Shown here in pieces: positions 329 through 19,529 of a stretch of DNA of 64,000 nucleotides; within the stretch, counting starts at the first letter, position 1; every line of letters begins with the position of its first letter. Under the pieces are notes generated by a model, which was not told the origin of the DNA, made no database searches, and saw nothing but the letters and a program-made list of their open reading frames with translations. The stretch lies in contig NZ_FNTJ01000001.1 in assembly GCF_900105185.1 (NCBI RefSeq), positions 2,128,501 to 2,192,500 of the forward strand. The letters are read 5' to 3'. This stretch comes from Pseudomonas saponiphila (GTDB lineage: Bacteria; Pseudomonadota; Gammaproteobacteria; Pseudomonadales; Pseudomonadaceae). A program made the position numbers and the translations under genes.

Positions 329-682
329 ATGAAGCCGTCCGCACCTGAGCAAATCCCGCTGTTCGCGGAGCCGCCCCGGGTGTCCATCGCGCAGCTGGTC
401 CTGCACACACCGGCGGCGCCTGCGCGGCCAGGGCCGAAGCGCATCGACTGGTTCAAGGTGATCACCGAGGTTCTGCGCTCCGGCGAATACTCGATCCAGG
501 GCGCAGCGGACGAAATCGGCGTGGCGCGCACCACGCTGATTGGCTGGAAGCAGGGCGCCGAGCCGCGCTACAGCGAAGGCGAGCGCCTGGTGCTGCTCTG
601 GTGCAAGATCACAGGCGAAAGCCGCGACACGCTGCCCATGGTCGCCGCCCGCGACTGGTGGGCGTATCACTCCAAGACCTGA
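329..682 (+). CDS. Small HTH DNA-binding protein, possible late regulator
   Basis: A 117-residue protein. Residues about 44-77 read as a helix-turn-helix: a helix around WFKVITEVLRSG, then AADEIGVARTTLIGWKQG typical of an HTH with the recognition helix at ARTTLIGW. The stop codon overlaps the first base of motif copy 1, and an intrinsic terminator and the holin follow. This is the place a late-gene activator or antiterminator would occupy in other temperate phages. That role is inferred from position only; it could equally be a Cro-like or terminase-type HTH protein. Confidence 0.7.
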   Translation: MKPSAPEQIPLFAEPPRVSIAQLVLHTPAAPARPGPKRIDWFKVITEVLRSGEYSIQGAADEIGVARTTLIGWKQGAEPRYSEGERLVLLWCKITGESRDTLPMVAARDWWAYHSKT

Positions 683-700
683 AATAGTCAGGATTCCGAC
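682..700 (+). promoter_or_regulatory. Phage 19-base motif, copy 1
   Basis: AAATAGTCAGGATTCCGAC. It differs from copy 2 by one base (A for G at position 10), which breaks the internal GTCGG/CCGAC stem. It begins at the stop codon of the HTH gene and is followed 39 bases later by an intrinsic terminator. Confidence 0.6.
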
Positions 701-739
701 ACCCAACCCCGCCGATGCTTCCCTCGTCGATCAATACGA

Positions 740-766
740 CCCCGCCCATGTGCGGGGTTTTCTTTT
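740..766 (+). terminator. Intrinsic terminator before the lysis cassette
   Basis: CCCCGC (740-745), loop CCATGT, GCGGGG (752-757), then a T-rich run interrupted by one C. It lies between motif copy 1 and the holin, so transcription started at the motif would meet it before any gene. Confidence 0.75.
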
Positions 767-791
767 CCAGCCCCGGCGAGGGGATATCGAG

Positions 792-1127
792 ATGCCGAAC
801 ATGCCAGACAAACCTGACACCTGGGCGATCCTGCTGGCGTGGCTAAGCCAGCACGCCCCCTTGCTATATGCGGCGCTGCTGTCGTTCCTGATGGCCGCGG
901 TGCGGATCATTTACGGAGGCGGTACGCGGCGACAGGCTGGGCTTGAGGCCTGCTTGTGTGCGCTGTTCACCGCGGGGGCATTCCCACTGCTCGAGTATTT
1001 CGGGCTGCCCCAGAACCTGGCCGCAGCACTTGGCGGTGGCATTGGCTTCATCGGCGTGAAGAAAATTGCCGACCTAGCCGACCGCTTCGCCGACTTCAAG
1101 CTGCCACGCCGGGGGGCCGGCCAATGA
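792..1127 (+). CDS. Holin, 111 aa
   Basis: A small membrane protein with three hydrophobic stretches: about residues 9-38 (ILLAWLSQHAPLLYAALL onward), 48-66 (ACLCALFTAGAFPLLEYFG) and 70-88. The C-terminus is charged (RFADFKLPRRGAGQ). It permeabilises the inner membrane so the endolysin can reach the wall. The ATG at 792 was chosen because GAGGGGAT precedes it and it gives a compact membrane protein; the frame stays open upstream but overlaps the HTH gene. Its stop overlaps the endolysin start (ATGA). Confidence 0.82.
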   Translation: MPNMPDKPDTWAILLAWLSQHAPLLYAALLSFLMAAVRIIYGGGTRRQAGLEACLCALFTAGAFPLLEYFGLPQNLAAALGGGIGFIGVKKIADLADRFADFKLPRRGAGQ

Positions 1128-1561
1128 CCATTGCCCGCGGCGTCCGCAACCACAACCCCGGAAACATCGACTACAACCCCCGTAACAACTGGGAAGGCCA
1201 GCTCGGCAAGGAGCCGAACGGCAGGTTCGCTATCTTTGATACCGCCGAGAACGGCATCCGAGCCCTGGGCAGGCTGTTGCTCAACTACCGCGGCAAGGAC
1301 GGCATGCCCGGGGTTGGTGGCCCAGGCATCGATACCCCTCGCGAGTTCATCACCCGCTGGGCGCCCGGGAACGAGAACGACACCGAGGCCTACATCGCCG
1401 CTATCGCTAAGCGTCTGGGCGTGAAGGCGAACGACGTGATCAATATCAAGAACCCGGTAACCCTGCGCGCAGTGATGCTGGGAATCATCGTTCATGAGAA
1501 CGGCGGCAACCCTTACCCGGACGCTGTGCTCGATGAAGGTCTGCGCAGGGCCCTCAAGTGA
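1124..1561 (+). CDS. Endolysin, lytic transglycosylase-like (145 aa)
   Basis: It begins RGVRNHNPGNI and contains FDTAENGIRALGRLL, the pattern of phage and virion-associated peptidoglycan hydrolases annotated as structural protein P5 or lytic transglycosylase. There is no signal peptide, so export would depend on the holin just upstream, with which it shares an ATGA overlap. It acts on the peptidoglycan sugar backbone if the family assignment holds; I cannot name the catalytic residue with confidence. The next gene overlaps by GTGA. Confidence 0.82.
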   Translation: MTIARGVRNHNPGNIDYNPRNNWEGQLGKEPNGRFAIFDTAENGIRALGRLLLNYRGKDGMPGVGGPGIDTPREFITRWAPGNENDTEAYIAAIAKRLGVKANDVINIKNPVTLRAVMLGIIVHENGGNPYPDAVLDEGLRRALK

Positions 1562-1998
1562 CCCGCTATATCGTGTTTGGGCTGTCTGTGGCTTTGATCC
1601 TGGCGTTTTGGCGGCTCGACCATATCAGCACCAGCCTCGATGCATCATCGCAGCGTGTGCGCGATCTGGAGAGCCAAGCCGAAGCGCACCAGCAGGCGAT
1701 CACCGTTCGCGATTCCATCGACAGTCAGTTTCAGGAGGAAATCCGCAATGCCGAAGACTCCAAGCCTCAGCTTGTTGCTGACCTCAACTCTGGCGCTCGC
1801 GTCGTGTACGTCCGCGCCGCCTGCATGCCAACCAATCCCAACCCCACCGGCAGCACTGATGCAGCCGCCCCCCAACTTGCAGCAGATGCTCGACAGGATT
1901 ATGCCGACCTCGTTGCAGCCAACCGCAAAGTGACTGCCCAGGTCGCCGGCCTGCAGCAGTTCATCCTCTCCGCGTGCGTTCGCGCCGCTTCGAAATAG
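1558..1998 (+). CDS. i-spanin (Rz-like), 146 aa
   Basis: An N-terminal membrane anchor (residues about 4-20, IVFGLSVALILAFW) is followed by a periplasmic coiled-coil-prone region, as in Rz proteins that bridge to an outer-membrane lipoprotein and disrupt the outer membrane at lysis. The GTG start overlaps the endolysin stop. The stop codon TAG lies inside motif copy 2. A complete Rz1 gene is embedded in another frame. Confidence 0.85.
   Translation: MTRYIVFGLSVALILAFWRLDHISTSLDASSQRVRDLESQAEAHQQAITVRDSIDSQFQEEIRNAEDSKPQLVADLNSGARVVYVRAACMPTNPNPTGSTDAAAPQLAADARQDYADLVAANRKVTAQVAGLQQFILSACVRAASK
1748..1933 (+). CDS. o-spanin (Rz1-like lipoprotein), nested in Rz
   Basis: A 61-aa frame wholly inside the Rz gene. 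It has a lipoprotein signal peptide (LLLTSTLALAS before Cys20, lipobox LAS-C) and a proline-rich mature part (PPACQPIPTPPAALMQPPP), the hallmarks of Rz1. AGGAGG stands 8 bases before the ATG at 1748, so an internal start is used rather than the longer open frame from 1640. It would pair with Rz to fuse inner and outer membranes at the last lysis step. Confidence 0.85.
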   Translation: MPKTPSLSLLLTSTLALASCTSAPPACQPIPTPPAALMQPPPNLQQMLDRIMPTSLQPTAK

Positions 1999-2011
1999 TC
2001 GGGATTCCGAC
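1993..2011 (+). promoter_or_regulatory. Phage 19-base motif, copy 2
   Basis: AAATAGTCGGGATTCCGAC, with a perfect GTCGG/CCGAC stem and GATT loop. It supplies the Rz stop codon. A 7-bp hairpin (AAGCCTC 2032-2038, GAGGCTT 2054-2060) follows and ends just before the next gene. Confidence 0.65.
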
Positions 2012-2065
2012 GCCTTCCCCCCGCGATGCTGAAGCCTCTTTGATCAACTCACTGAGGCTTTACCC

Positions 2066-2284
2066 ATGCCAGTAGCAACCCCACGCCGCGTTAGTCGCGA
2101 AGACCTTGACCAGGCCACCCAACTGACCGACGCCATGTCGCGCCTGATTGCCGCGCTCCCTGGTTCGAACAGTGCCGAAGTGCAGGCCGCCACCAACAGC
2201 CTGCTGGTGGATATGGCGGCGTTCGCCAAAGAGCTGATCAAGACCGAGGTTCCCAGTCTTCCAGCCCCGCCAGTCGCCCAGTAG
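2066..2284 (+). CDS. Hypothetical phage protein, 72 aa
   Basis: First gene after motif copy 2. Mostly helical by eye (LTDAMSRLIAALPG, SLLVDMAAFAKELI), with no recognised domain. The upstream hairpin may occlude its start region. A role in head assembly is only suggested by its place before the portal gene. Confidence 0.65.
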   Translation: MPVATPRRVSREDLDQATQLTDAMSRLIAALPGSNSAEVQAATNSLLVDMAAFAKELIKTEVPSLPAPPVAQ

Positions 2285-2332
2285 TCCCCAAGCCCCGGGC
2301 GCGCTTTGTGCGCCCACCACCGGAGAAACTCC

Positions 2333-2758
2333 ATGTCAGCCCCTGACCTGATCGTTCAAACCCCAGGCGTACCTGTCGCCAACCAGGCGCCGGTTGCGTC
2401 CGCTGCCGACGGCTCTGCCAGCCAGCAGCCCCCAGCAGCACCAGCTCCAGCAGCAGTGCCCTACGCCGCCAAGCACAACGGCGGCGGGCGCTGGATTGTG
2501 ATCACCAACGACGACAAGGCCACCCGCATCGGTGATTTCGTCGGCGACCGGGACTCGATCGTTCCCGAGGTCGAGCGCATGAATGCCGGCGGCGAACCCT
2601 TCGTTGCGCCGGCCCCGACCGTGACCAGCCAGGCCCAAGCGCCCCAGGCGCTCCAGCGGCAGCAGCCCGGCGAGGCCATCGACCCCACAACCATCAAGCA
2701 AGCGGTCATGACCAGCGAAGGCTGGCTCTGCCCTGAGCCCAAGGCAGCGAAGGAGTAA
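2333..2758 (+). CDS. Hypothetical phage protein, 141 aa
   Basis: An Ala/Pro/Gln-rich N-terminus (residues 10-40) leads to a compact section around GGGRWIVITNDDKATRIGDFVGD. The ATG at 2333 has a good ribosome binding site (GGAGAAA) 6 bases upstream; the open frame reaches 2306 but lacks one there. No family recognised. It lies in the head-gene block. Confidence 0.65.
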   Translation: MSAPDLIVQTPGVPVANQAPVASAADGSASQQPPAAPAPAAVPYAAKHNGGGRWIVITNDDKATRIGDFVGDRDSIVPEVERMNAGGEPFVAPAPTVTSQAQAPQALQRQQPGEAIDPTTIKQAVMTSEGWLCPEPKAAKE

Positions 2759-2763
2759 GACCC

Positions 2764-2970
2764 ATGGGAAGTAAGCCAAAGGCGCCGAAGGTGGTCCCGC
2801 CACCAGACCCGGCCATTGAAGCCCAGAAGGCCGCCGATGCCGCGGCCATCAAGGCCAACGAAGAAACCGCCACCCGCAAGAAGCGCAAGGCCGAGAGCAG
2901 CCTGCTCACGTCTGGCGCCCAAGGCTCTGGCTCTGTTCTCTCATCCGGTAAGAGCACCCTCGGGCAATGA
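2764..2970 (+). CDS. Small phage protein upstream of portal, 68 aa
   Basis: A Lys/Ala-rich protein with a short proline run (KVVPPPDP) and a Ser/Gly-rich tail, probably disordered or helical. Its stop overlaps the portal start (ATGA at 2967-2970), showing translational coupling. Similar short genes precede the portal in related podoviruses; function unknown. Confidence 0.68.
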   Translation: MGSKPKAPKVVPPPDPAIEAQKAADAAAIKANEETATRKKRKAESSLLTSGAQGSGSVLSSGKSTLGQ

Positions 2971-4571
2971 ACGCATCCCAGATCTGCACAACGTTGAGCA
3001 CCCTGAAGTCTCTGCGCTCGCCGCATGAGCAGGTCTGGCGCGACTGCTATGACCACAGCTACCCGATCCGGGGTAGCGGCTTCTGCTCCGAGCAAATCAC
3101 CGCCATCGAGGCGCAAATGCGCAAGGCGCGGATGCTGGACGGCACCACAACGGACGCAGCCCGCATTCTGTCGTCGAGCATCATGTCGGGCCTGACCCCG
3201 GCCAACTCTCTCTGGTTCGGCATGGACGTCGGCCAGGAAACCGAGGACGAACGCCGGTGGCTCGACGACTCGGCCGACATCCTCTGGCAGAACATCCACG
3301 CTTCGAACTTCGACGCCGCAGCCTTCGAGGGCATGCTCGACGAGGTGTGCGCCGGCTGGTTCGCCCTGTACATCGATAGCGACAAGGAGCGGGGCGGCTT
3401 CACGTTCGATCTGTGGCCAATCGCGAGCGTCTACTGCTCGGCATCAAAGGCTGGCGGGAAGATCGACACCGTTTACCGCGAGTACCAGCTCACTGCCCAG
3501 CAGGCGGTAAACGAGTTCGGCGAGGCCAATGTCAGCGAGAACACCCGCAAACTGGCCCAGGACAAGCCGCAGGAAATGGTGCGGTTCATCCACGCAATCT
3601 ATCCGCGCAGCACATACATGGTCGGCGCCCGCCTGGCCAAGAACATGCCGATTGCGTCATGCAAGGTCGAGGTCGAGGCCAAGCGCATGGTCAGCGAGTC
3701 GGGCTACCACGAAATGCCGGTGGTGGTTCCGCGCTGGATGATGATTCCGAACAGCGTCTATGCCGTGGGCCCGGTGTTCGATGCGCTGCCGGATGCGCGC
3801 ACGCTGAATGACCTGTGCCGGATGGACCTCGCCGCCGGGGATCTGGCCATTGCCGGTATGTGGATTGCCGAGGATGACGGCGTACTGAACCCGCGAACGG
3901 TGAAGGTCGGCCCCCGCAAGATCATTGTGGCCAACAGCGTGGACAGCATGAAGCCCCTGCAAAGCGGCTCCAACTTCCAGTACGCCGAAACCAAGATCCA
4001 GCGCTTGCAGGCGTCGATCCGCAAGATCCTGATGGCCGACCAGCTCCAGGCCCAGGACGGCCCGGCGATGACCGCGACCGAGGTGCATGTGCGGGTGAAC
4101 CTGATCCGTCAGCTGCTGGGCCCCGTCTATGGCCGCCTGCAAACCGAGTACCTGCAACCCCTGATCGAGCGGTGCTTCGGCATCGCCTACCGCGCCGGCA
4201 TCCTGGGGCAGGCACCGGAAAGCCTGGCTGGCCGCAACTTCACAGTGCGCTACCTGTCGCCCCTGGCGCGCGCCCAGAAGCTGGAAGAGGTAAACGCCAT
4301 TGACCAGTTCGTGGCCGGTGCCCTGGGCATCGTTTCTGCCACGCAAGACCCTTCGATTCTGGACAACATCGACCTGGACGAGGCCCAGCGCTTCAAGGGC
4401 GAGGCCCTGGGCGTACCGAACTCCATCATTCGCAGCAAGGCCGACAGGGACAAGATCAGGGCAGACCGTGCCCAGGCACAGCAGGACGCCCAGGAGCAGG
4501 CGCAGCAGCAAATGATGATGCAACAGGCCGGCGAGGCCGCAATGAGGCAACAGCCAGGAGCTGCAGCATGA
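2967..4571 (+). CDS. Portal (head-to-tail connector) protein, 534 aa
   Basis: Length nearly equals T7 gp8 (536 aa). The N-terminal region has LKSLRSPHEQVWRDCYD and RMLDGTTTDAARILSSSIMSGLTPANSLWF, characteristic of T7-type portals. The C-terminus is Gln/Ala-rich and low complexity. Portals form a dodecameric ring at one capsid vertex through which DNA is packaged and ejected. It is followed by an ATGA overlap with the next small gene and then scaffold and capsid, as expected. Confidence 0.93.
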   Translation: MNASQICTTLSTLKSLRSPHEQVWRDCYDHSYPIRGSGFCSEQITAIEAQMRKARMLDGTTTDAARILSSSIMSGLTPANSLWFGMDVGQETEDERRWLDDSADILWQNIHASNFDAAAFEGMLDEVCAGWFALYIDSDKERGGFTFDLWPIASVYCSASKAGGKIDTVYREYQLTAQQAVNEFGEANVSENTRKLAQDKPQEMVRFIHAIYPRSTYMVGARLAKNMPIASCKVEVEAKRMVSESGYHEMPVVVPRWMMIPNSVYAVGPVFDALPDARTLNDLCRMDLAAGDLAIAGMWIAEDDGVLNPRTVKVGPRKIIVANSVDSMKPLQSGSNFQYAETKIQRLQASIRKILMADQLQAQDGPAMTATEVHVRVNLIRQLLGPVYGRLQTEYLQPLIERCFGIAYRAGILGQAPESLAGRNFTVRYLSPLARAQKLEEVNAIDQFVAGALGIVSATQDPSILDNIDLDEAQRFKGEALGVPNSIIRSKADRDKIRADRAQAQQDAQEQAQQQMMMQQAGEAAMRQQPGAAA

Positions 4572-4816
4572 CCCCATACACCCCAGAGCAGCTGGACGAC
4601 ATGTTCAAGCGTGTGTTCGAGCAGCACGCCGAGGGCGCGATTGTTCTTGAACACCTGATCCAGCGCTTCAGCAAGAACGCTGTAACCGTGGGCGGCATTG
4701 ACGCCGTTCTGCGTACCTACCTGCAGGCCGGCCACCGCGAAGTGCTGGACCACATCCTGCTCCGAATCAATCGCGCCAATGGCGTGGAAGACCAACCTGA
4801 AGAGGATTCCCAATGA
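4568..4816 (+). CDS. Hypothetical phage protein, 82 aa
   Basis: A small acidic helical protein (YTPEQLDDMFKRVFEQ at the start) tied to its neighbours by ATGA overlaps at both ends, so it is surely translated. No family recognised; position between portal and scaffold suggests a head-assembly role. Confidence 0.72.
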   Translation: MTPYTPEQLDDMFKRVFEQHAEGAIVLEHLIQRFSKNAVTVGGIDAVLRTYLQAGHREVLDHILLRINRANGVEDQPEEDSQ

Positions 4817-5664
4817 ACTGGTTCATTCACAACCGCCTGGGTCACTACCTGTGCAACGAGGCCGGCGCCGATGGCGGTGATGGCGGCGGCGGTGCAACTC
4901 CACCAGCAGCTACCCCGCCAGCAGGCTCTGTGCTTAACAGCGGTGCCACCCATGACTGGATGCCCGAGAAGTACCGCACCAGCAAGGAAGATGGTTCGCT
5001 CGACCTGGACGCATCCAGCCGCAAGATGGCCGAGGCATACCGCCATCTGGAATCCCGCATGGGTTCCGGCGATGCGCCGCCCAAGTCGGCAGACGACTAC
5101 ACCGTCAAGCTGGAAGGGGTCGAGGGCTTCAACTGGGATGAGTTCAAGGCCGACGAGAGCACCCAGTCATTCCTGAAGGGGGCGCATGCCAAGGGCCTGA
5201 CCAACGACCAGGTGCAGTACGTGATTGGCGAGTACATGAAGGCGGCCCCGGGCCTGATCGAAGGCGGCGTGCAGCTGACCCAGCAGGACTGCACTGCGGC
5301 GCTCAAGTCGGTTTGGACTGACGATCAGACCATGCGGACCAACGTCACCGCCTCTTTCCGTGCCGCCGAGGCTTTCGCCAACCCAGAGGGCCAGCCCGGT
5401 AGCTTCCAGAACCTGGCGGCCAAGTACGGCAACGACCCGGATTTCATCGCCTTCACAGCAAACATCGGCAAGGAGCTGCGCGAAGACAGCCAGATCAACG
5501 GCGGGGCGCCGGTCAGCGAGGCCGACTTCAACGTCAAGGCGGCAGAGCTGCGGCAGTTGCTGGTGGAGCTGCCCCCGCACGATCCGAAGCGCAAAGGCGT
5601 ACAGGCCCAGCTGGACGAAATGTACAACCGCCGATTCGGCAAGCCCCAATCCCGCCTGGGCTGA
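4813..5664 (+). CDS. Capsid scaffolding protein, 283 aa
   Basis: Comparable to T7 gp9 (about 307 aa) in size, acidity and position. After a Gly/Pro/Ala-rich N-terminus (residues 18-40), it has the motifs WMPEKYRTSKEDGSLDLDAS and MAEAYRHLESRMG shared by podovirus scaffolds. It would direct coat-protein assembly and leave before the capsid matures. A 200-base gap with motif copy 3 separates it from the capsid gene. Confidence 0.88.
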   Translation: MNWFIHNRLGHYLCNEAGADGGDGGGGATPPAATPPAGSVLNSGATHDWMPEKYRTSKEDGSLDLDASSRKMAEAYRHLESRMGSGDAPPKSADDYTVKLEGVEGFNWDEFKADESTQSFLKGAHAKGLTNDQVQYVIGEYMKAAPGLIEGGVQLTQQDCTAALKSVWTDDQTMRTNVTASFRAAEAFANPEGQPGSFQNLAAKYGNDPDFIAFTANIGKELREDSQINGGAPVSEADFNVKAAELRQLLVELPPHDPKRKGVQAQLDEMYNRRFGKPQSRLG

Positions 5665-5673
5665 CTCCCGCCC

Positions 5674-5692
5674 AAATAGTCGGGAAACCGAC
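5674..5692 (+). promoter_or_regulatory. Phage 19-base motif, copy 3
   Basis: AAATAGTCGGGAAACCGAC: perfect stem GTCGG/CCGAC with a GAAA loop. It lies in the 200-base scaffold-capsid gap. A second hairpin (CCCGGTA, GCAA loop, TACCGGG; 5720-5737) follows 27 bases later. I see no gene in the rest of the gap. Confidence 0.68.
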
Positions 5693-5865
5693 ACCCCACA
5701 ACTCCGACTATCACAGGCACCCGGTAGCAATACCGGGCCGGCCTGCGATGGCACGCAGATACCCGGACAGCCCCAGGCGCAGCAAAGCCGATGCACGCCA
5801 GGAACCCCGGCCCGCGCAGCGGACACCCGGCCAGGCAATCCCAAATCTGCATTGGAGTGCATCAG

Positions 5866-6732
5866 ATGTCTTTTCAAATTACCGAAGCTTTCATCCAGCA
5901 ATTCGCGGACAACTTCAAGCACGTTGCCCAGCAGACGCAATCGCGTCTTGAGCGCTGCGTGACCCCCGAGCCCAACATCGTGGGCATGTCGAAGTCCGTG
6001 AACCGCATGGGCCAACGCACCGCACAGCGTCGCACCCAGCGCCACGCCGACACCCCAATCAACGACCAGCCACACTCGACCCGGTTCGTTGACCTGTTCG
6101 ACTGGGACGACGGCGACATGCTCGACGACCAGGACAAGATCCGCATGCTTGTCGATCCGACCTCTGACTATGTCAAGGCGATGGTTGCCGCTCTGAACCG
6201 CGCCAAAGACGACGTGATTATCGAGGCCTTCGGAGGTGTATCGCGTGCTACCGCCGGCGGCATTCTCCTGCCCACCTCCCAGAAGATCGCAGTAGGCGGC
6301 TCCGGTCTGACCAAGGCCAAGATCCTCCAGACGCGCAAGATGTTTCGTAAGAACGAGGCGGACAACCACAACGGTGAAGAGTTGTTCATCACCTACAGCG
6401 CCCAGGCCGCCGCCGACATCCTGGCCGATCCGCAACTCACCAGCGCCGACTACCTGGCCGGCAAGTTCCTCCAAGATGGTGACATCGAGGGCAAATGGAT
6501 GGGCTTCACCTGGATTCCAAGTGAGCGCACCCCGTGGGATGGCGCCACCCGCCGCCTGTACGCCTGGACCAAGTCCGGCGTGGTCTTGGGCACAGGCCAA
6601 GAAATCAAAACCAAGGTCGGCGAAGACCCGAGCAAGGCCTTTAACACCCGCGTCTATGCCAAGCAGTCGATCGGCTCGGTTCGGGTTGAAGAAGAGAAAG
6701 TCGTCGAGATCGCCGTCGCCGAGGCCGCGTAA
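5866..6732 (+). CDS. Major capsid protein, 288 aa
   Basis: Position after scaffold and a length near that of T7-like coat proteins support this call. It begins SFQITEAFIQQFADNFKH and contains FVDLFDWDDGDMLDDQDKI and WMGFTWIPSERTPWD, typical of podovirus major capsid proteins. The ATG at 5866 has TTGGAG upstream; the open frame begins at 5791 but would add an unlikely Arg/Pro-rich leader. Preceded by motif copy 3, in keeping with a need for high expression. Confidence 0.9.
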   Translation: MSFQITEAFIQQFADNFKHVAQQTQSRLERCVTPEPNIVGMSKSVNRMGQRTAQRRTQRHADTPINDQPHSTRFVDLFDWDDGDMLDDQDKIRMLVDPTSDYVKAMVAALNRAKDDVIIEAFGGVSRATAGGILLPTSQKIAVGGSGLTKAKILQTRKMFRKNEADNHNGEELFITYSAQAAADILADPQLTSADYLAGKFLQDGDIEGKWMGFTWIPSERTPWDGATRRLYAWTKSGVVLGTGQEIKTKVGEDPSKAFNTRVYAKQSIGSVRVEEEKVVEIAVAEAA

Positions 6733-6773
6733 GCGGCTTTGGTCATCCACTTTCACGAAAGGAGCCAATCACC

Positions 6774-7235
6774 ATGGCAACTGTAAATGCTTCCGTGGCT
6801 GCCGCTCGGGCAGCTCTCCCACAGCAACTGGTCAAGCCGAGCCAGCAGGGCGCCGACGTGCAGGTGCTGGTCAGTACCTACGCCGTGCCAGCTGGCGGCG
6901 TAGCCGTCGGCGACAGGATCAAATGGGGCCAGATCCCGTTCGGTACGCGCCTCATGCCGAGCACGCGCCTGTACTTCAGCGCCGGCGCGGCGTCTTCCAC
7001 CCTCAACCTGGGCGACGTCGCCAGCCAGGCCCGCTACCTGGCGGCGACCTCGGTAGCTGCTGCTGGTAGCGCGACTGCCGAGGCGGTCTATGCAAACGGT
7101 GGTCTGTTCGAGGTCGCGGTCGTTGCCCCGGGCCAGCCCACCGACCAGAGCGAGCTGTTTTCCATCGTCGCGGGTGCTGCGCTCCAGGCCGGCCAGGTGA
7201 TCACCCTGGTGGCGCAGTACGCCGGCCAGAACTGA
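6774..7235 (+). CDS. Probable capsid decoration or minor virion protein, 153 aa
   Basis: Ala/Val/Gly-rich with predicted beta structure and no signal peptide. A strong ribosome binding site (AAAGGAG) precedes the ATG. It sits directly behind the capsid gene and before the terminator at 7265, so it would share the high transcription level of the coat gene. Decoration function is inferred from position; no motif proves it. Confidence 0.6.
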   Translation: MATVNASVAAARAALPQQLVKPSQQGADVQVLVSTYAVPAGGVAVGDRIKWGQIPFGTRLMPSTRLYFSAGAASSTLNLGDVASQARYLAATSVAAAGSATAEAVYANGGLFEVAVVAPGQPTDQSELFSIVAGAALQAGQVITLVAQYAGQN

Positions 7236-7264
7236 TAGCGGTTGCCATGGATGGCGAACAACTT

Positions 7265-7291
7265 ACCGGGGCCGCGTGCCCCGGTCTTTTT
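7265..7291 (+). terminator. Intrinsic terminator after capsid module
   Basis: ACCGGGGC (7265-7272), loop CGCGT, GCCCCGGT (7278-7285), then CTTTTT. This matches the place of the T7 Tphi terminator, which also lies just downstream of the coat gene. Confidence 0.85.
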
Positions 7292-7306
7292 ATCTGGAGG
7301 TTTTAG

Positions 7307-7888
7307 ATGAGCATGGCCACCGGGGTATCGATCTGTTCCAACGCCCTGCTGATGCTTGGCGCCAAGAGCATCAATGACTTCAACGAACCCGTGGACCGGG
7401 CGAAGATCGCCGCGAACTTGTATCCCACCGTCCGCAATGACTTGCTGCGCACCCATCCCTGGAACTGCACGATCAAGCGCGTTCTGCTGGCGCCGGATGC
7501 AACGCCACCTGCTTTCGGTTATGCCAACCAGTTCGAGTTGCCTGCGGACTTCCTGCGCGTCCTGGAGGTTGGCCAGGCCGGCCTGCAGGTCGACTACTTG
7601 GTCGAGGGCCGGCAAATCCTGGCGAACGCCACTTCGCTGGAACTGCGCTACGTCTACCTCAACGAGATAGAAAACACCTGGGACGCAAACCTTGTCGCGC
7701 TGTTGACTCTGGCAATGGCGGCAGCGATGGCCTACGCCATCACCCAGTCCGCTGCTGTTCGTGACAGCCTCAAGCAAGACCTGGAGATGGCGAAGAAAGT
7801 GGCCCGAGCCGTGGACGGCCAGGAGGACCCGCCACAGACGCTGGGTGACGAGCACCTGTATGCCTCCCGGTTTGGAGCGCGCGGATAA
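7307..7888 (+). CDS. Tail tubular protein A, 193 aa
   Basis: Matches T7 gp11 in length (196 aa) and in its N-terminal pattern: ICSNALLMLGAKSINDF followed by NLYPTVRNDLLRTHPWNC. It forms a ring joining the portal to the tail nozzle. Good ribosome binding site (TGGAGG). The stop shares one base with the start of the tubular B gene (TAATG). Confidence 0.93.
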   Translation: MSMATGVSICSNALLMLGAKSINDFNEPVDRAKIAANLYPTVRNDLLRTHPWNCTIKRVLLAPDATPPAFGYANQFELPADFLRVLEVGQAGLQVDYLVEGRQILANATSLELRYVYLNEIENTWDANLVALLTLAMAAAMAYAITQSAAVRDSLKQDLEMAKKVARAVDGQEDPPQTLGDEHLYASRFGARG

Positions 7889-10038: not shown

Positions 10039-10049
10039 GGTAACCCCAA

Positions 10050-10493
10050 ATGATCAGGGCCGCAAAGCATTCTGACGTTCCCCGGCTGATCGAGCTGGGC
10101 ACCATGCTGCATGAGATCAGCAGCTATTCATCGATGGCTTTTTCTCCGGAGAAGTCCGCGGCCTTCCTGCATGAGCTGATCAACGGCGCCGGGGTCGTGT
10201 TCGTTGCAGAGGTCAATGGCGAGGTAGTCGGTGGCATGGCCGGCGGAATCATTGACCAGTGGTTCAGCGATGACCTGATTGCCTACGACTATTCGCTGTT
10301 TGTCGAGCCCTCCAAGCGCAATGGCGTGGTCGCTGTTCGCCTGATCCGTGCCTTCCAGGAGTGGGCCAAGATCAAGGGGGCGAAGCAGATTTACATGGGC
10401 ATCGGGACCGGCGTCAACGTCGAAGGAACTACCCGGCTTTATGAGTCTCAGGGCCTGCGGAATGTCGGCCCGCTTTTGATGATGGAGATCTGA
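10050..10493 (+). CDS. GNAT-family acetyltransferase within the virion module
   Basis: A 147-aa GNAT fold: N-terminal RAAKHSDVPRLIELG, beta strand FVAEVNGEVVGGMAGG, a VEPSKRNGVVAVRLIRAF acetyl-CoA-binding segment in place of the classical Q-x-x-G-x-G/A loop, and an end motif TTRLYESQGLRNVG. Such genes recur between tail and internal-core genes of T7-like phages. Substrate unknown; it may modify a host or virion protein. It has a ribosome binding site (GAGGTAA) and sits 11 bases after the nozzle gene. Confidence 0.85.
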   Translation: MIRAAKHSDVPRLIELGTMLHEISSYSSMAFSPEKSAAFLHELINGAGVVFVAEVNGEVVGGMAGGIIDQWFSDDLIAYDYSLFVEPSKRNGVVAVRLIRAFQEWAKIKGAKQIYMGIGTGVNVEGTTRLYESQGLRNVGPLLMMEI

Positions 10494-10494
10494 A

Positions 10495-11007
10495 ATGACA
10501 GGTGCAATGGCTTATGCCGCTTATGCGGCCATGGCAGCAGCCACAATGTACTCGGTCTACTCGACGCAGCAGTCCGGCAAGCAGGCCAGCTTAAACGCGA
10601 ACTCACAGGCGGAGCAGGCCCAGGCGGACGCAGACGCCGCAGCCAGCGCCGCGACTGTTCAGGCTGACCGTATCCGCCGCCTTGCCCGTAACCAGGCCGG
10701 CGAGGCCAATGCGGCGCTTGCGGCATCTGGCGTGGAGGTGGGCGAGGGGACGGCGATCAACATCAACAAGGAGATTTACGCCAACGCTGAAGAGGACGCG
10801 ACGCTGACATTCCTCAATGGGCAATCGCAGAAAGCCCGGGGCCAGGTTGATGCAAGCAACTACCGGCTCGCAGGGGCGCAGGCCAGGTCGCAGGCCAATG
10901 CCCAGTCCATCGGTACAGTGCTTTCTACGGGCGCCCAAATGGGGATGTCCTGGAAGGCCTCGGCCGCTGGGCGCAATGGCTCTGCCGCTGCTGTAGGGGG
11001 AGCGTAA
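10495..11007 (+). CDS. Internal virion protein, gp14-like (170 aa)
   Basis: Ala-rich, with a hydrophobic N-terminus (residues 4-23) and a long helical section containing RRLARNQAGEANAALAASGVEV, a pattern common in gp14-type ejection proteins (T7 196 aa). Such proteins form a pore in the outer envelope during DNA entry. The start lies 1 base after the acetyltransferase stop; assignment rests on size, order and composition. Confidence 0.75.
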   Translation: MTGAMAYAAYAAMAAATMYSVYSTQQSGKQASLNANSQAEQAQADADAAASAATVQADRIRRLARNQAGEANAALAASGVEVGEGTAININKEIYANAEEDATLTFLNGQSQKARGQVDASNYRLAGAQARSQANAQSIGTVLSTGAQMGMSWKASAAGRNGSAAAVGGA

Positions 11008-11010
11008 CCG

Positions 11011-13029: not shown

Positions 13030-14927
13030 GCTGGCTTGATGGGATGGTCGACGAAGGGGAAGTGGCCAGCCAGGAACAGCGGCTGGATCGGACAACTGAC
13101 CGGCTTGCCCCGGGCGCCTTCACTGGCGCCCTCAGCACGATAGGGCCCGGCCTGCTGCGTGGTGCCATCGAGGCGGGGCGAACTGTTCAGACCACAGCCC
13201 TGCAGCTGGGTAGCGCGGCCATCGAGTCGGATCTGTCGATGGGCGCCTCGTACTTCCCTGAGTTCGAAGACGGCCAGGTCCAGGCGCAGCGGGAGTTCGG
13301 CGAGGGGGAGGCCCGGCGCATAGGTGAGGAAACGGCAAAGTCTGTGATGGATCTGCGGCCAGATCCGACCGAGGTCGGCATGGTGGGCCAAATCCTGGGC
13401 GAGGCTGCCGCCGTCTTGCCTCGCGCTGTGGCCGGTACTTTTGCTGCTGGGCCGGTTGGCGCGGCAGTAGCTGCAGGTGCGCCAGCAGGGTACAGCGGTA
13501 AGCAGGTGGCCATGGCCGAGGGCATCGACGAAACCACCGCCACCCTCAAGGGCTTGATCGATGCCAGTACCGTGGGGGTTGGTGCAGTGATGCCGGCGGC
13601 GCGGTTCGTCGGTCCGGTGATCGGGGATGCAGCAATTGCCGTTGGCGCAAACGTCGGCCTTGGCATGACTGGGCGCGGCGCCACTGGGGCGCTTCTGGAG
13701 AGCAACGGCTACCACCTGCAGGCCGAGCAGTACAAGGCCATGGACGGCACGGCCATCTTGACCGACGCGGTGCTGGGTGCCGCGTTCTTCGGCATCGGTC
13801 GGGCGGGGATGCGCCGGCCCACGACCGAGCACGTCGACGCAGCGTTGACCGAGCGCACCATTCAGCACGCCGACGTCGACACAGCCCCGGGCGCGCCGAT
13901 CAACCCACGTTCTGCCGTGGCTCACCAGGATGCCCTGCGCACGGCTATCGATCAGTTGCAGCGCGGGGAGCCGGTGGTGCTGCCTGAAAGCATCCACTCT
14001 GCCCAGTTCCTGCGTGCCGCTGACGAGTCGCCGGTCGCGGCCCCAAGCCGTGATATGGCGCTGGCCACCGCCCGCCAGGACCTGGAGCCGACTGTGCGCC
14101 TGGAACTGGAACAGGAGGCCGCCGGCATTCTGCCGAACGTGCGCGACGTGAAGACCGAACTGGCTTCGATTGGCCGGAGCCTGGATGCCTTGGACGATTC
14201 GTTCAAGGCACGGGCAAAGGAATTCCAGCAGCAGGGCCAGGGCCGCAAGCGAGCCGAGCAGTCAGCCCGGGAGGCCATCGAGGCAGAGCGCCTGGAGCTG
14301 AACGACCGGCAGACCTCATTGAACGATGCGCTGAACGGCAACCGTAGCGCCGAGCTGGCCCGCGCCGAGCTGGCCGCCCTGAACCGTGGTGAGACACCGA
14401 ATCGCTTGCAAGACCGCATGGATGTCAGGGCCGACGCCATTGCGAAGGGCTTCGAGCGCTCCCCATTGGCCGCAGGCGTTGCCGAGGGCAACACCAAGCT
14501 GACCATGGCCCAGATTGCCCGCCAGGAGATAACGCGCATCCTCGACGATATCGAGCGCGCCGAACCCACGCTGCAGGCCAAGCCGCTGGAAATCGGAGTA
14601 CCAAGGCAGGCCGGCAAGCCTGATGTTGTTGCAGCGGAAGGTGCCAAACCTGCAACGGATGCAGGTCATCCCGCAACGGATACCCAGGAATCTGCATCAG
14701 CACCTGGCAAAGCCGCAACAGATCCAGAGATCGCTGTCGCCGACGAGATCCTGGCCCGGGCCGAAGATATGCAGCTTCCAACCGGCGCCACGGATGCCGA
14801 CGGCAATGCGGTCACCGTGTCTGCCCGCGAGCTACTGGCCCAGGCTGATGCCGACATCCAGGCAGCCCACCAGGATGCCCGGGGCTTCGCTGCAGCTGCC
14901 GCCTGCTTCCTTCAGCGGGGTTTTTAA
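13026..14927 (+). CDS. Internal virion protein, first half of a gp16-like pair (633 aa)
   Basis: A large virion-type protein with a Gly/Ala-rich hydrophobic region (residues about 125-215, including AAVLPRAVAGTFAAGPVGAAV) and a charged helical C-terminal half. Together with the next gene it fills the place of T7 gp16 (1,318 aa), the inner-membrane-spanning ejection protein. It ends ACFLQRGF, a type of tail I associate with intact phage proteins rather than truncations. No transglycosylase motif was found in it. Confidence 0.7.
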   Translation: MSWLDGMVDEGEVASQEQRLDRTTDRLAPGAFTGALSTIGPGLLRGAIEAGRTVQTTALQLGSAAIESDLSMGASYFPEFEDGQVQAQREFGEGEARRIGEETAKSVMDLRPDPTEVGMVGQILGEAAAVLPRAVAGTFAAGPVGAAVAAGAPAGYSGKQVAMAEGIDETTATLKGLIDASTVGVGAVMPAARFVGPVIGDAAIAVGANVGLGMTGRGATGALLESNGYHLQAEQYKAMDGTAILTDAVLGAAFFGIGRAGMRRPTTEHVDAALTERTIQHADVDTAPGAPINPRSAVAHQDALRTAIDQLQRGEPVVLPESIHSAQFLRAADESPVAAPSRDMALATARQDLEPTVRLELEQEAAGILPNVRDVKTELASIGRSLDALDDSFKARAKEFQQQGQGRKRAEQSAREAIEAERLELNDRQTSLNDALNGNRSAELARAELAALNRGETPNRLQDRMDVRADAIAKGFERSPLAAGVAEGNTKLTMAQIARQEITRILDDIERAEPTLQAKPLEIGVPRQAGKPDVVAAEGAKPATDAGHPATDTQESASAPGKAATDPEIAVADEILARAEDMQLPTGATDADGNAVTVSARELLAQADADIQAAHQDARGFAAAAACFLQRGF

Positions 14928-14947
14928 TGTGGGGGAAAATCACTTTT

Positions 14948-14966
14948 AAATAGTCGGGAAACCGTC
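14948..14966 (+). promoter_or_regulatory. Phage 19-base motif, copy 4
   Basis: AAATAGTCGGGAAACCGTC. It differs from copy 3 only at position 18 (T for A), which breaks the stem with no compensating change. It lies in the 85-base gap between the two gp16-like genes. Confidence 0.62.
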
Positions 14967-14981
14967 TATCTCCCACCAATA

Positions 14982-15011
14982 GGCTTGCTCCATCCCCAGA
15001 AGGAGCAAGCC
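14982..15011 (+). promoter_or_regulatory. Hairpin covering the ribosome binding site of the 854-aa gene
   Basis: GGCTTGCTCC (14982-14991), 10-base loop, GGAGCAAGCC (15002-15011): a perfect 10-bp stem ending 1 base before the ATG at 15013. The likely Shine-Dalgarno bases (AGGAG) are at the loop-stem junction and in the 3' arm, so translation should be limited unless the stem is opened. Confidence 0.65.
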
Positions 15012-15012
15012 C

Positions 15013-17577
15013 ATGCGCCCCGAATGCATCCAGGCCGTCACGCAGGCGATTGGCCGAACCCTCACCCAGCCCGAGATCAAGGGCATCGAAGACCGAGTGC
15101 GCCGCAATATGCGGCAACTGGCCCAGACCGACGCTACCTGGCAGTCGAAAACAGCCGCTGACCGCTTGAACGAAGCCGCCGCCAAGTCGGCGCAGGACCT
15201 CGTAGCCGAGGCCAACCTCAAGAAAAAGCGCGTGGCGCTGACCATCATGGCTCACGACCGCATCAAGAGTTACATGGCGCGATTCCCGGACCAGCCGCTG
15301 GAAGGCCTGGACCGGCTTCTGGCGTTCTCCAGCGACGGGAAAAGCGGCATCCAGTCAATCGAGTCGGCTACCCGAGCCATCCGCGACGACGCTCTGTCGC
15401 GGATGCTCGACGTGATCGACCAGACCAAGGGCAAGTTCCTGGGCCTACTCCAGGACCAGCAGGGCAATCTGGCGCTGGTGCGCGAGCTGCACGGCCAGGA
15501 CAGTGGCAGCGCCGCGGCAAAGGCTGCGGCCAAGTCGTTCAGCGATATCGCCGAGCAGCTGCGCCAGCGCTTCAACCGTGCAGGTGGGGACGTTGGTTTG
15601 CTCGATGACTGGGCCATGCCCCGGGACCATTCCCAGGTGAAGGTCGCTCAGAACCGGGCGAAGTGGGTCAACGACCATATCCAGTGGGCAAACCGTTCGA
15701 AGTATATGAACGAGGACGGTTCGCCGATGAACGACGTGCAGCTTGCGGACTTCCTCGGCCACGCCTGGCAAACCCTGGCCACTGGCGGCCTGAACAAGCT
15801 GCAGCCCGGGGCCGTCGCTGGCAACGGAATGCGGGCCAACCGTGGCAGCGAGTCGCGCCAGATCCACTACAAGGACGCTGAGAGCTTCATCGCCGCGCAG
15901 CAGGCCTACGGCGACAAGAACCTGCTGGAACTGCTGATCGGGCACGTAGATCGGGCCGCTCGTGACATTGCCCTGGTAGAGGCCCTGGGCCCAAACCCCA
16001 ACCACCAGATGCGCTACTGGCTGGAGGAAGGCCAGAAACAGCAGGCGGACAAGGCTCTGGCAATCCCAGGCAAGAAGGGCGAGAAGGCCCGGGGGGCAGT
16101 CGAGAAACAGCGCAAGCACATTGAAAGCCTGTATGAGGAAGTGGCCGGCACCCGGGAGCCGCCGGTATCTGCTGCGCTGGCCAACGGGTTTGACACCTAC
16201 CGCGCCTTGAACGTCGCCAGCCGCCTGGGCTCTGCGGTGATCACATCGATCACCGACCAGGGCACCCTGGGCCTTACAGCTTCAATGAACGGAATGCCGG
16301 TAATGCAGGTGTTCGCAAATGAGCTGCGCATGCTCAACCCGGCCAACGCTGCCGACCGTCGCCTGGCGCAGCGTGCCGGCCTGGGCCTGAATCAGCTGAT
16401 TGGGAGCCTGAACCGCTACGGGGCCGACGGCCTGGGCACCAATGAAGCAATCGCCGGCAGGGTGGCGAAATTCAGCCAGACCACCGCGAGCAAGGTTTTG
16501 CAGGCCTCTGGTATGAACGCCTTGACCGCCGGCACGCAGCGGGCTTTCGGCGCGACCATGATGGATACCCTCGGGGATATGTCCCGCCGGCACCAGAGCC
16601 TGGCGGCCATGGACGCGGCGGACAGCAAGCGCCTGATCGGCCAGGGGGTCACCGAGACGGACTGGTCAGTCTGGCGCCTGGCCCAGCCCGAGGACTGGCG
16701 CGGGGCCGGCGATACTGTCCTGACTGCTGGCAGCATCTACCGCATCAAGGACGCAGACCTGGTGCCGCTGGCAAAGCAGCTCAAGACCACGCCGCAACGC
16801 CTCAAGGACCAGGCCGCCACCAAGCTGCTGGGCACCGTGCTGGACGAAACCAACATGGCGATCATCGAGCCCGGCGCCCGAGAGAAGGCGCTGATGCACG
16901 GCGGGGTCGAGCGCGGAACCTGGAAAGGCGAGCTGGTGCGCTCGTTCTGGCAGTTCAAGAGCTTCTCCATAGCCATGATGATGCGGCATGCCCGGCGCGG
17001 AATGGCCCAGGAAGGCTGGGGCAAGGCCGGGTATCTGGCTGCGCTCACCGCCACCACCACGGTGCTGGGTGGTATGGCCATTCAGCTGGGCGAAATTGTG
17101 ATGGGCCGAGATCCGAAGGACATCACCAGCGACAAGACCCTTGGCGTCCCGGGCCTGCAGTTCGGCCTGGCCGCATTTCTCAAGGGTGGTTCACTGGGGC
17201 TCTACGGCGACTTCCTGTTCTCCAACACCACCCAGGGCGGCCGGTCGTTCGTGGCATCCCTGGGGGGGCCGATAGCGAGTGACATCGATGCATTGTCGCA
17301 GCTGAAGGGTAATGCTGCAGAAGGCGACGGCGACAAGGTCGGGGGGAACCTGGTTGCGTTCGCCAAGTCGCACATCCCTGGTGCCAACCTCTGGTACACC
17401 AAGGCAGCCACCGACCACCTCATCTTTAACCAGCTGCAGGAATACTTCTCGCCTGGCTACCTGCGGCGAATGAAGCAGCGCGCCCGGAAGGAGTTCGGCC
17501 AGTCGTTCTGGTGGGAGCCGGGCGATACCTCGCCAGATCGGGCGCCGAGCTTTGGCGCCGCAGTAGGGGGACGCTGA
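15013..17577 (+). CDS. Large internal virion protein, second half of a gp16-like pair (854 aa)
   Basis: Mostly helical and charged, with one hydrophobic stretch near residues 675-695 (LAALTATTTVLGGMAIQLG) and another Gly-rich one after it. Size, position before the terminase genes and composition suggest the membrane-penetrating part of the ejection machinery. It has its own motif copy and a ribosome-binding-site hairpin upstream, so it is regulated apart from the preceding gene. No enzymatic motif recognised. Confidence 0.72.
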   Translation: MRPECIQAVTQAIGRTLTQPEIKGIEDRVRRNMRQLAQTDATWQSKTAADRLNEAAAKSAQDLVAEANLKKKRVALTIMAHDRIKSYMARFPDQPLEGLDRLLAFSSDGKSGIQSIESATRAIRDDALSRMLDVIDQTKGKFLGLLQDQQGNLALVRELHGQDSGSAAAKAAAKSFSDIAEQLRQRFNRAGGDVGLLDDWAMPRDHSQVKVAQNRAKWVNDHIQWANRSKYMNEDGSPMNDVQLADFLGHAWQTLATGGLNKLQPGAVAGNGMRANRGSESRQIHYKDAESFIAAQQAYGDKNLLELLIGHVDRAARDIALVEALGPNPNHQMRYWLEEGQKQQADKALAIPGKKGEKARGAVEKQRKHIESLYEEVAGTREPPVSAALANGFDTYRALNVASRLGSAVITSITDQGTLGLTASMNGMPVMQVFANELRMLNPANAADRRLAQRAGLGLNQLIGSLNRYGADGLGTNEAIAGRVAKFSQTTASKVLQASGMNALTAGTQRAFGATMMDTLGDMSRRHQSLAAMDAADSKRLIGQGVTETDWSVWRLAQPEDWRGAGDTVLTAGSIYRIKDADLVPLAKQLKTTPQRLKDQAATKLLGTVLDETNMAIIEPGAREKALMHGGVERGTWKGELVRSFWQFKSFSIAMMMRHARRGMAQEGWGKAGYLAALTATTTVLGGMAIQLGEIVMGRDPKDITSDKTLGVPGLQFGLAAFLKGGSLGLYGDFLFSNTTQGGRSFVASLGGPIASDIDALSQLKGNAAEGDGDKVGGNLVAFAKSHIPGANLWYTKAATDHLIFNQLQEYFSPGYLRRMKQRARKEFGQSFWWEPGDTSPDRAPSFGAAVGGR

Positions 17578-17578
17578 T

Positions 17579-17914
17579 ATGCGAAGCGATCAACTGGACC
17601 GCATGCAGAACCTGGCCGAGGACTTGGCCGAAGTTGTGATTCAAGAGGCTGACCCAAAGCAATGGCCTGGGGCAGGAAAACTCCTGGCGGATTTGACCAA
17701 AGATGAACGGGGCGACCGCTATTGGTGCAAGAAGAACGCTGCAGCGACCATGACGCTGCTGGTCAAGGTCATGAACATTTGCGGCACGCTGAATCGTGCC
17801 GGCGCCCCAGCGCCCAACGAGGAAGAGGAGGGCATGGACAAAGACATTGCCCGAGCCGAGCAGGAAGCCGTCGCGCTGCTGGAGAAGGCGCAGCAGGGTG
17901 GTCATGTCCACTGA
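17579..17914 (+). CDS. Terminase small subunit (gp18-like), 111 aa
   Basis: A small acidic helical protein directly before the large terminase, overlapping its start by 11 bases. T7 gp18 (89 aa) holds the same place. It contains LADLTKDERGDRYWCKKNAAAT and a helical Glu-rich C-terminus. It would recognise phage DNA and regulate the packaging motor. Assignment depends on context and general composition. Confidence 0.72.
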   Translation: MRSDQLDRMQNLAEDLAEVVIQEADPKQWPGAGKLLADLTKDERGDRYWCKKNAAATMTLLVKVMNICGTLNRAGAPAPNEEEEGMDKDIARAEQEAVALLEKAQQGGHVH

Positions 17915-19529
17915 GCCCAAGCGCCCGTATATCTCCCTGCTGGCGTTCTTCCTCATGTGGGCCCGCCGCATGGGCTGGAAAGTCCCGAACGTGCATGTCC
18001 GGGCGTGCCATTGGCTGGAGCACCGTGGAAACCTTGCGGTGCTTCGCTGTTTCCGGGGGTTCGGCAAGTCCACCATCCTGGCCGTGTACAACGCCTGGCG
18101 GTACTACCTCGACCCAGCCTATCGAATCCTGCATCAGTCGGAGTCAGACCCTACGGCCTACAAGACCAGCCGCGACACGCAGAATGTGCTTCGCAATCAC
18201 CCTCTTACTAAGCACCTGCTGCCCGCCGGCCAAGGAACCGTTGAACAATGGTGGGTATTGGGCGCTACGGACCATCGAAATGCCAGCATGTTCGCGAAAG
18301 GTATTCTGTCGAACGTCACGTCGGCCCGAGCGGATGAGTGCCAGAACGACGACGTCGAGGTGCCGCGCAATATCCAGACGCCCGAGGCTCGGGAGAAAAT
18401 GCGATATCGCCTGGGCGAGCAGGTCCACATCATGGTGCCAGGTGCCCGCCAGCTCTACATTGGTACACCCCACACCCATGACAGTCTTTACGACGAGGTC
18501 GAGAGCCTAGGGGCTGATTGCCTGACCATCCGCATGTTCGGTCAGGAGCATCGAATTGAGGACGCCAAACTTACCGTCTATGACGTACCGTTCATCCCTG
18601 AAATCGTGTTCCAGGGCATTGGCAAAAACTCCCGGCTGATGGTTGCCGGCACCGACTACCAGATCACCAAGACTGGCATAGCCTTCTTCTCTCCACCTGG
18701 TGGACTGGTGGACTGCTACGCCGGGTGTGCCTGGCCAGACCGTTTCGACGCTCGGGAATTGGCCGATCGCAGGAAGAAGACCCGCACCATCAACGAATGG
18801 GATTCGCAGTACCAGCTGCACTCGAAGCCTGTAACGGAGGTTCGTTTGGACCCTGCCCGCATCATCCCCTACGACGTGCAGCCGACCATGCGCTACGCCA
18901 ACAACGCGGCGGCCATGTACCTGGGTAGCACGCAGATCGTCGGCGCCGTGGCCTATTGGGACTGTTCCCTGGGCAAGATCAAGTCGGATGCCTCGGCCTT
19001 CTCGCTGATCCTCACCGACGCCCGGGGCCAGCTGTACTGGCACCTGGCCGTTGGCCTCACTGGCGAAATCGCAGAGTTCGACGACCGGGACCGGATCATC
19101 GGTGGCCAGGTCCACCAGATACGCGAACTGGTCATCAATCATCAGATCCCGCGGGTGATCATCGAGACGAACGGCCCGGGCGGCTTCGCGCCGTCGATCC
19201 TCAAGCAAGCCTTGAAGGGCACCGGCTGCGGGGTAGGTGAGGAGCATTCAAGCGCGAACAAGCAGAAGCGCATCCTGGATGCCTTCGAGTCTCCACTGTC
19301 GGCCAGGTTCCTGTGGGCCCACGTCGATGTCCTGCGCACGATTTGGGACCAGATGCGCGACTTCAACCCAGCGCTGACCAACCAGGACGACGATTACATC
19401 GACTCCGGCGCCGGCGCGATTGCCCAGACCCCAGTGCGGATAGGCCGGATAGTCGGGAAACCGACAGAGGTGCGGCGCGACGATTGGCGACCAAGCGCGG
19501 GCACACATGACGTTCAGGTCGACTACTAG
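17904..19529 (+). CDS. Terminase large subunit, 541 aa
   Basis: Walker A FRGFGKST at residues 50-57 and a Walker B-like acidic segment ADECQNDDVEVP follow the layout of T7 gp19 (586 aa). The C-terminal half carries an RNase H-like nuclease core (AYWDCSLGKIKSDASAFSLI, then the VIIETNG segment). It drives ATP-dependent packaging and cuts concatemers. The ATG at 17904 was chosen over the longer frame from 17796 because it fits the conserved N-terminus and overlaps the small subunit only slightly. Motif copy 5 lies in its 3' end. Confidence 0.93.
   Translation: MSTEPKRPYISLLAFFLMWARRMGWKVPNVHVRACHWLEHRGNLAVLRCFRGFGKSTILAVYNAWRYYLDPAYRILHQSESDPTAYKTSRDTQNVLRNHPLTKHLLPAGQGTVEQWWVLGATDHRNASMFAKGILSNVTSARADECQNDDVEVPRNIQTPEAREKMRYRLGEQVHIMVPGARQLYIGTPHTHDSLYDEVESLGADCLTIRMFGQEHRIEDAKLTVYDVPFIPEIVFQGIGKNSRLMVAGTDYQITKTGIAFFSPPGGLVDCYAGCAWPDRFDARELADRRKKTRTINEWDSQYQLHSKPVTEVRLDPARIIPYDVQPTMRYANNAAAMYLGSTQIVGAVAYWDCSLGKIKSDASAFSLILTDARGQLYWHLAVGLTGEIAEFDDRDRIIGGQVHQIRELVINHQIPRVIIETNGPGGFAPSILKQALKGTGCGVGEEHSSANKQKRILDAFESPLSARFLWAHVDVLRTIWDQMRDFNPALTNQDDDYIDSGAGAIAQTPVRIGRIVGKPTEVRRDDWRPSAGTHDVQVDY
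19447..19465 (+). promoter_or_regulatory. Phage 19-base motif, copy 5 (inside terminase gene)
   Basis: GGATAGTCGGGAAACCGAC, identical to copy 3 after the first two bases. It lies within the terminase coding sequence, 87 bases before the tail fiber start, so it is kept in spite of coding constraint. Confidence 0.62.

Follow-up and report, generated by a model that had tools for sequence, protein, structure and literature searches.

Putative activator-dependent late promoters with a predicted translational lock in a temperate prophage of Pseudomonas saponiphila

Results

The window examined in the present work, that is, the whole stretch of 64,000 nucleotides of Pseudomonas saponiphila DNA, has its left third within a prophage of about 36 kb. 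An 18-nt direct repeat marks its boundaries; the repeat takes in the 3′ terminus of a tRNA-Leu gene (L007:5862) and occurs again at window position 21793. Its left part contains a CI-like repressor, a CII-like regulator and a replication protein, together with ORFs that we take from their sequences to encode an integrase, an exonuclease and DnaB. The right part contains the genes for a helix-turn-helix (HTH) protein, lysis, head and tail. A gene for a GNAT acetyltransferase (PF00583, window 10050-10493) lies within the structural cluster, and is annotated also in the phages Piluca and TPWB-05.

A 19-nt motif, ending in [G/A]GGA[A/T][A/T]CCG[A/T]C, recurs in the right part (Table 1); positions within each instance are numbered from the start of this 19-mer. 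Four copies match the stated pattern exactly, and the one at 19447 departs from it at two positions, beginning with GG where the pattern has AA. The five sites compare with 0.01 expected from 100 dinucleotide shuffles, none of which reached five. In the 7.38-Mb genome they are the sole sites with 0-2 mismatches, and five further sites with three mismatches all lie elsewhere. Copy 1 is followed by the lysis genes, while the TAG of copy 2 is the stop codon of an Rz-like gene (1558-1998, phrog_13), with the head operon next. The capsid gene after copy 3 belongs to PF19821 and the 854-aa virion protein after copy 4 to phrog_684. A preliminary description of this DNA had claimed five copies, on the coding strand and ahead of lysis, head, capsid, last internal protein and tail-fibre genes; both the number and the placement are confirmed, with the two mismatches at 19447 as the one amendment.

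Table 1. Coordinates of the motif copies, promoter elements and leader features (window positions, except for the last two rows)
Feature	Position	Strand	Basis or remark
117-aa HTH protein, candidate late activator	329..682	+	gene ends (last base of stop codon) on first base of copy 1
Copy 1, putative activator box before lysis genes	682..700	+	pattern match
−10 hexamer GATGCT, copy 1	714..719	+	start inferred near 726
Hairpin and T run resembling a terminator, after copy 1 and before lysis genes	739..768	+	sequence
Copy 2, putative box before head operon	1993..2011	+	pattern match
−10 hexamer GATGCT, copy 2	2025..2030	+	start inferred near 2037
AAGCCTC..GAGGCTT stem, 3′ arm containing SD (GAGG) of ORF at 2066	2032..2060	+	predicted pairing
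Copy 3, putative box before capsid gene	5674..5692	+	pattern match
−10 hexamer GACTAT, copy 3	5706..5711	+	start inferred near 5718
Copy 4, putative box before 854-aa virion protein gene	14948..14966	+	pattern match
−10 hexamer TAGGCT, copy 4	14980..14985	+	start inferred near 14992
GGCTTGCTCC..GGAGCAAGCC stem between −10/+1 (5′ arm) and a 3′ arm containing the SD of gene at 15013	14982..15011	+	predicted pairing
Copy 5, putative box inside ORF 17796-19529, before tail-fibre ORF (start 19552)	19447..19465	+	pattern match, codon test
−10 hexamer GACGAT, copy 5	19479..19484	+	start inferred near 19491
CACCCAACAAACC sites at module starts in Piluca (L155)	7, 19459, 24200		
CACCCAACAAACC sites at module starts in TPWB-05 (L156)	25754, 20860, 11948, 8450, 3475		

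We now turn to the level at which the motif is maintained. For copy 5, we collected 23 distinct C-terminal segments of the ORF 17796-19529 protein, chosen by protein similarity regardless of the motif, from loci that had mostly been obtained via the motif, the HTH protein or the portal. The residues [ILV]VG.P are retained in 20 of the 23 segments, with the codons GTC, GGG and CCG in 20/20, and the core motif is present in 18 of the 23. Where the first residue is Ile, its codon is the rare ATA in 17 of 18 cases; the Ile codons of ORF 17796-19529 are ATC 25, ATT 6 and ATA 4 (ATA 4/35). By contrast, four different codons are in use for an invariant Pro located six codons further upstream, and five for a neighbouring invariant Arg. 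The constrained codons next to drifting neighbours support selection on copy 5 at the DNA level, as the preliminary description had proposed for the motif. This similarity-based test supersedes an earlier in-frame codon count, which was partly circular because its instances had been picked by motif score.

We considered, and rejected, the possibility that the motif acts as a hairpin in RNA. The mismatches in the stems of copies 1 and 4 are real and uncompensated, and the in-frame copies keep their codons. An Rfam 15 search of window 1-22000 gave two matches, with E values of 2.3 and 3.3, far under the gathering score. The preliminary argument for DNA selection instead of an RNA hairpin stands as far as the motif is concerned; RNA structure does matter, however, downstream of it (see below).

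The alignment of the family reveals a second conserved element. It comprises 174 instances with at most one mismatch, chosen on the 19-mer alone, of which 173 reach positions 33 and 37. Position 33 is A in 169 of these and position 37 is T in 168. The hexamer containing them begins 13 nt past the end of the 19-mer, and the computed distance of 4 nt between the two letters is that of the sigma70 −11A and −7T, which all five copies in the window possess. The family pattern of this −10 hexamer, mostly G-A-n-C/G-A/C-T, is weak. In the 40 nt upstream of the motif almost nothing is conserved among the aligned instances, and no −35 hexamer TTGACA is present 17 nt upstream, where positions 9-14 read GGAWHC. 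The place of the −35 is occupied instead by the 14-bp dyad GTCGGGA.WWCCGAC, with its centre at about −32 and a span of about −39 to −26, if transcription starts, as we infer, near position 44.

The earlier remark that the motif is not recognisable as a T7, SP6, gh-1 or sigma70 promoter is borne out, in the case of sigma70 for an ordinary promoter, and the conservation of the motif and the −10 across relatives supports a family of phage promoters. It had also been suggested that a phage RNA polymerase or an activator from outside the window reads the motif. The polymerase is unneeded, because a conserved −10 hexamer sits 13 nt past each copy, and a candidate activator is encoded inside the window, by ORF 329-682. 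On sequence grounds, host RNA polymerase together with an activator fits the promoter structure best.

The reader of the five sites is probably this HTH protein. Its family comprises 93 proteins, including the ORF 329-682 product, with a nearly invariant recognition segment. The structure model is confident at residues 41-100, and the best fold matches are mostly XRE proteins, none of them at a Foldseek E value below 0.001 and with Z below 8. C proteins of restriction-modification systems are among the closest known systems. Lambda CII is absent among the matches listed, which carries no weight either way.

It is instructive to see how far the HTH protein and the motif occur together. When IMG/VR was searched with nothing but the portal protein, the best 80 of at least 600 stretches have the HTH in 69 cases, the motif in 71 and both in 63; six have the HTH only, eight the motif only and three neither, some of the loci being fragments. 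All motifs in these loci have the orientation of the coding strand, and a reversed-sequence control gave 0 matches in 1.3 Mb. A second set consists of 85 loci that each have an HTH sequence of their own, after loci without an HTH match and repeated HTH sequences had been dropped. It holds 185 forward motif matches, 175 with A33 and T37, and no reverse ones; at least one motif with a −10 is found in 73/85 loci and at least two in 61/85, and 12/85 are without any. A 14-letter motif scan of IMG/VR returned at least 120 stretches. In two further record sets the HTH is found in 17/39 and 32/50, with six HTH-positive records common to both, which gives 43 of 83 distinct records, and many of the HTH-less ones are fragments or weak matches.

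Within the genus, the motif occurs in 13 of 398 genomes. The HTH is present in 6/6 sampled genomes with two or more copies, in 0/7 with one copy and in 0/30 motif-less ones. An HTH match was obtained in at least 12 of the 398 genomes, the candidates being partly scored (e.g. 11/68 in G000). Six of the 12 have the strict motif, and G365 has a diverged one starting just past the HTH ORF. In the remaining five the motif was not found within the 3.1-3.2-kb loci; four of these carry a PRH or PPH variant of the protein and one a truncated gene.

The motif is present at the same module boundaries in related phages, a point on which the preliminary description had let its proposal stand or fall. The Yersinia phage YeP4 has the HTH, and A33 and T37 are present in each of its five copies of the motif. 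According to PMC6548840, YeP4 was induced and observed to have a very short tail; the phage of the window is taken to be temperate, with short-tailed close relatives. The E. coli phage APEC (L157) and HTVC010P (L158) have neither HTH nor motif. The motif-less relatives Piluca (L155) and TPWB-05 (L156) were considered as HTH-less negative controls and rejected, since both have a diverged HTH.

In these two phages another box, CACCCAACAAACC, is present, in most cases where a module begins. With at most two mismatches, it is matched five times in Piluca against 0.9 expected and nine times in TPWB-05 against 0.8, 13 of the 14 on the coding strand, and it is often followed by a hairpin, a T run and an ATG. 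This suggests that box and HTH may change together. Another variant box, GTCAAGATTTCGAC, lies at two places in L218 (11328 and 14939), where the HTH recognition helix is changed. A collection scan for it gave at least 120 stretches; among the 80 listed, L357 is the same contig as L218, and this apparent co-variation comes from one lineage.

The leaders downstream of the boxes were analyzed by pairing 11-nt windows with the next 70 nt, in 113 representatives selected by shared 8-mers from 264 instances with enough flank. The strongest computed peak is at positions 34-38, i.e. −10 to about +1, where −14 kcal/mol is reached by 23-35% of the 113, compared to 2-4% when the partners are shuffled. 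Two lesser peaks, at −42 to −38 and at 48-50, have a terminator-like look. A start codon with a Shine-Dalgarno sequence (SD), assigned by a simple rule whose first hit was used, is found in 106 of the 113 leaders, and in 57 of these all predicted SD partners fall within positions 32-50. The mean unpaired fraction of the SD rises from 0.21 in read-through RNA to 0.34 when the RNA starts at position 44 (p 7e-9), the SD thus being mostly paired even in the initiated RNA. A change of more than 0.3 is seen upwards in 19 leaders and downwards in one. In a swap test, arms paired better with their own leader than with those of other representatives, the result being 0/2000 for all 113, 0/2000 for the head-operon class (17) and 2/2000 for the copy-4 class (10), with 1660/2000 and 197/2000 for control arms. 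An alifold calculation on 20 leaders, with a poor alignment, gave no structure.

For the individual copies the picture varies. At copy 1, the SD of the gene at 792 is predicted to be buried, in read-through RNA, within a long stem around the terminator-like hairpin, with unpaired fractions of 0.00 in the read-through and 0.49 in the initiated RNA. The corresponding values are 0.00 and 0.15 for copy 2, and 0.20 and 0.45 for copy 4. Copy 3 has a weak lock (0.10 and 0.20) and copy 5 has none (0.23 and 0.17).

Discussion

The whole model, which we consider likely, is one of HTH-activated sigma70 late promoters, many with a leader lock, in a temperate phage. An HTH dimer would occupy the dyad (about −39 to −26), which stands where a −35 element is otherwise found, and would recruit the host sigma70 RNA polymerase to the weak −10, 13 nt downstream. 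The HTH gene is the last of the early operon, and the late operons would therefore have to wait for early transcription to arrive there. A second safeguard is predicted for many leaders, in which the stretch between −10 and +1 also encodes an anti-SD arm. Since this stretch is complementary to the downstream SD, read-through RNA would hide the ribosome-binding site and RNA begun at the promoter, lacking the arm, need not, and could be translated. Several observations weigh against the model: the repressor name given to the HTH family by PHROGs, loci and genomes with the HTH or the motif alone, members of the family in phages with a different box, the weak or missing lock of copies 3 and 5, the SD that is mostly paired even in initiated RNA, and the terminator-like stretch at 739-768 after copy 1.

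Several other readings were weighed. With its gene immediately upstream of the promoter for lysis, the HTH protein recalls lambda Q, whose gene also is the last early one before the late promoter, and which acts by antitermination at one promoter, pR′. The HTH protein might similarly bind the box and mainly load onto RNA polymerase for passage of the copy-1 leader and later terminators. A T run is found 16-71 nt past the inferred start in 37 of the 60 copies following the HTH gene, which leaves room for such activity, although this count covers the T run alone, hairpin excluded. Several copies have no terminator, however, and the five promoters here, against the single one of lambda, are without a −35 and should therefore be silent without an activator. 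We regard this reading as rather improbable.

It is less probable still that the HTH is a repressor holding the late promoters, or read-through transcription, off. PHROGs names the family 'transcriptional repressor', many XRE proteins repress, and stoperators are also directional, as the motif is. Against this, the box replaces the −35 and stands on one side only of a weak −10 at fixed spacing, and the prophage has a separate CI-like repressor. A single-subunit RNA polymerase encoded by the phage would also account for a motif that is repeated, directional and located at module starts, yet we give this reading hardly any credence in view of the two-part structure with a sigma70-type A-11/T-7. 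No T7-like polymerase was recognized among the part of the prophage ORFs searched; the PF00940 profile had 0 matches in the genome, and likewise 0 in the control genomes.

Among known systems, P2 Ogr and the Delta protein of satellite P4 resemble the proposed one in two respects: a single late activator serves several promoters, and mobile elements that are not related respond to each other, the latter being putative in the present prophage family. The proteins and sites are different. The P1 late activator Lpa depends on SspA. According to the part of PMC10695390 available, P1 has a dedicated late activator that reads an inverted repeat at 11 late promoters. The window resembles this in having one inverted repeat common to several late promoters. 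The repeat sequence differs, and a leader lock is not described in that part of the paper. For T4, PMC3014915 describes a late promoter of gene e (lysozyme) that coincides with the DNA for the 5′ arm of a hairpin sequestering the SD, only the late-initiated RNA being translated; the genes named there as having this lock are e, soc, 49 and I-TevI, under T4 late promoters. A helix of this type is predicted in 57/106 leaders and, in the window, for copies 1, 2 and 4 and not for copy 5; it differs from gene e in belonging to a family of sigma70-type promoters and in an arm that overlaps the −10. Our verdict is that the sites are best described as Lpa-type late promoters that have an activator of their own and a T4-like translational lock. 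The motif letters were not found in the literature searched, nor was a promoter set for this temperate phage group of Pseudomonas and Yersinia, most subscription papers lying outside the search.

Single copies of the promoter also occur apart from the activator. A 61-aa gene is present in 6/398 genomes, with a box and −10 upstream in 6/6; in G050 this box begins ATTTAGTC. The HTH is absent in five of the six, and G050 has no HTH match in the 398-genome search with its partly scored candidates. The 61-aa protein, predicted to have three helices, belongs to a family of 21 proteins; it has no match in PHROGs and none in phage records, and its best PDB fold match has an E value of 3.2. In eight loci (L130, L134, L137, L138, L139, L455; L108, L053) an orphan copy before the 61-aa gene adjoins integrase-like ORFs, without the HTH or portal family. 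One site each is found in the phage records G418, G464 and G435 and in 80 kb around the G261 copy, where neither an HTH (filters off, best E 2.4) nor a portal relative was detected. The copy of G125, one of the seven single-copy genus genomes, has no −10 and is probably due to chance.

In L132, L126, L124, L082 and L071 the orphan copy is followed by a terminator-like hairpin. The tail gene just after it in L132 and L126 is presumably lambda-J-like, and the arrangement in these two looks like that of a moron or small-RNA gene. Conversely, HTH homologues without a nearby motif (PRH/PPH variants, one truncated) are found in L246, L247, L167, L195, L202, L469-L472 and L474. L246 and L202 have ORFs that we assume to be integrase-like, and therefore look like integrative islands; a decoy or P4-Delta-like role for such motif-less HTHs is possible.

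Conclusion

If the model is correct, it provides a testable late-gene control circuit, with activator and site, for temperate phages of Pseudomonas and Yersinia, and an economical arrangement, with −10, start site and anti-SD sharing the same few nucleotides. The orphan promoters would be natural reporters for prophages sensing each other's late activators. As a tentative proposal, which we think somewhat doubtful, unrelated prophages without the activator or this portal family, with one perfect promoter copy before a 61-aa gene or as a moron, may eavesdrop by firing on the late activator of a competing podophage in the same cell, and islands with an HTH and no box may act on the phage in trans. 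If true, this would be a response of the orphan-carrying prophage that serves as defence, hijack or escape.
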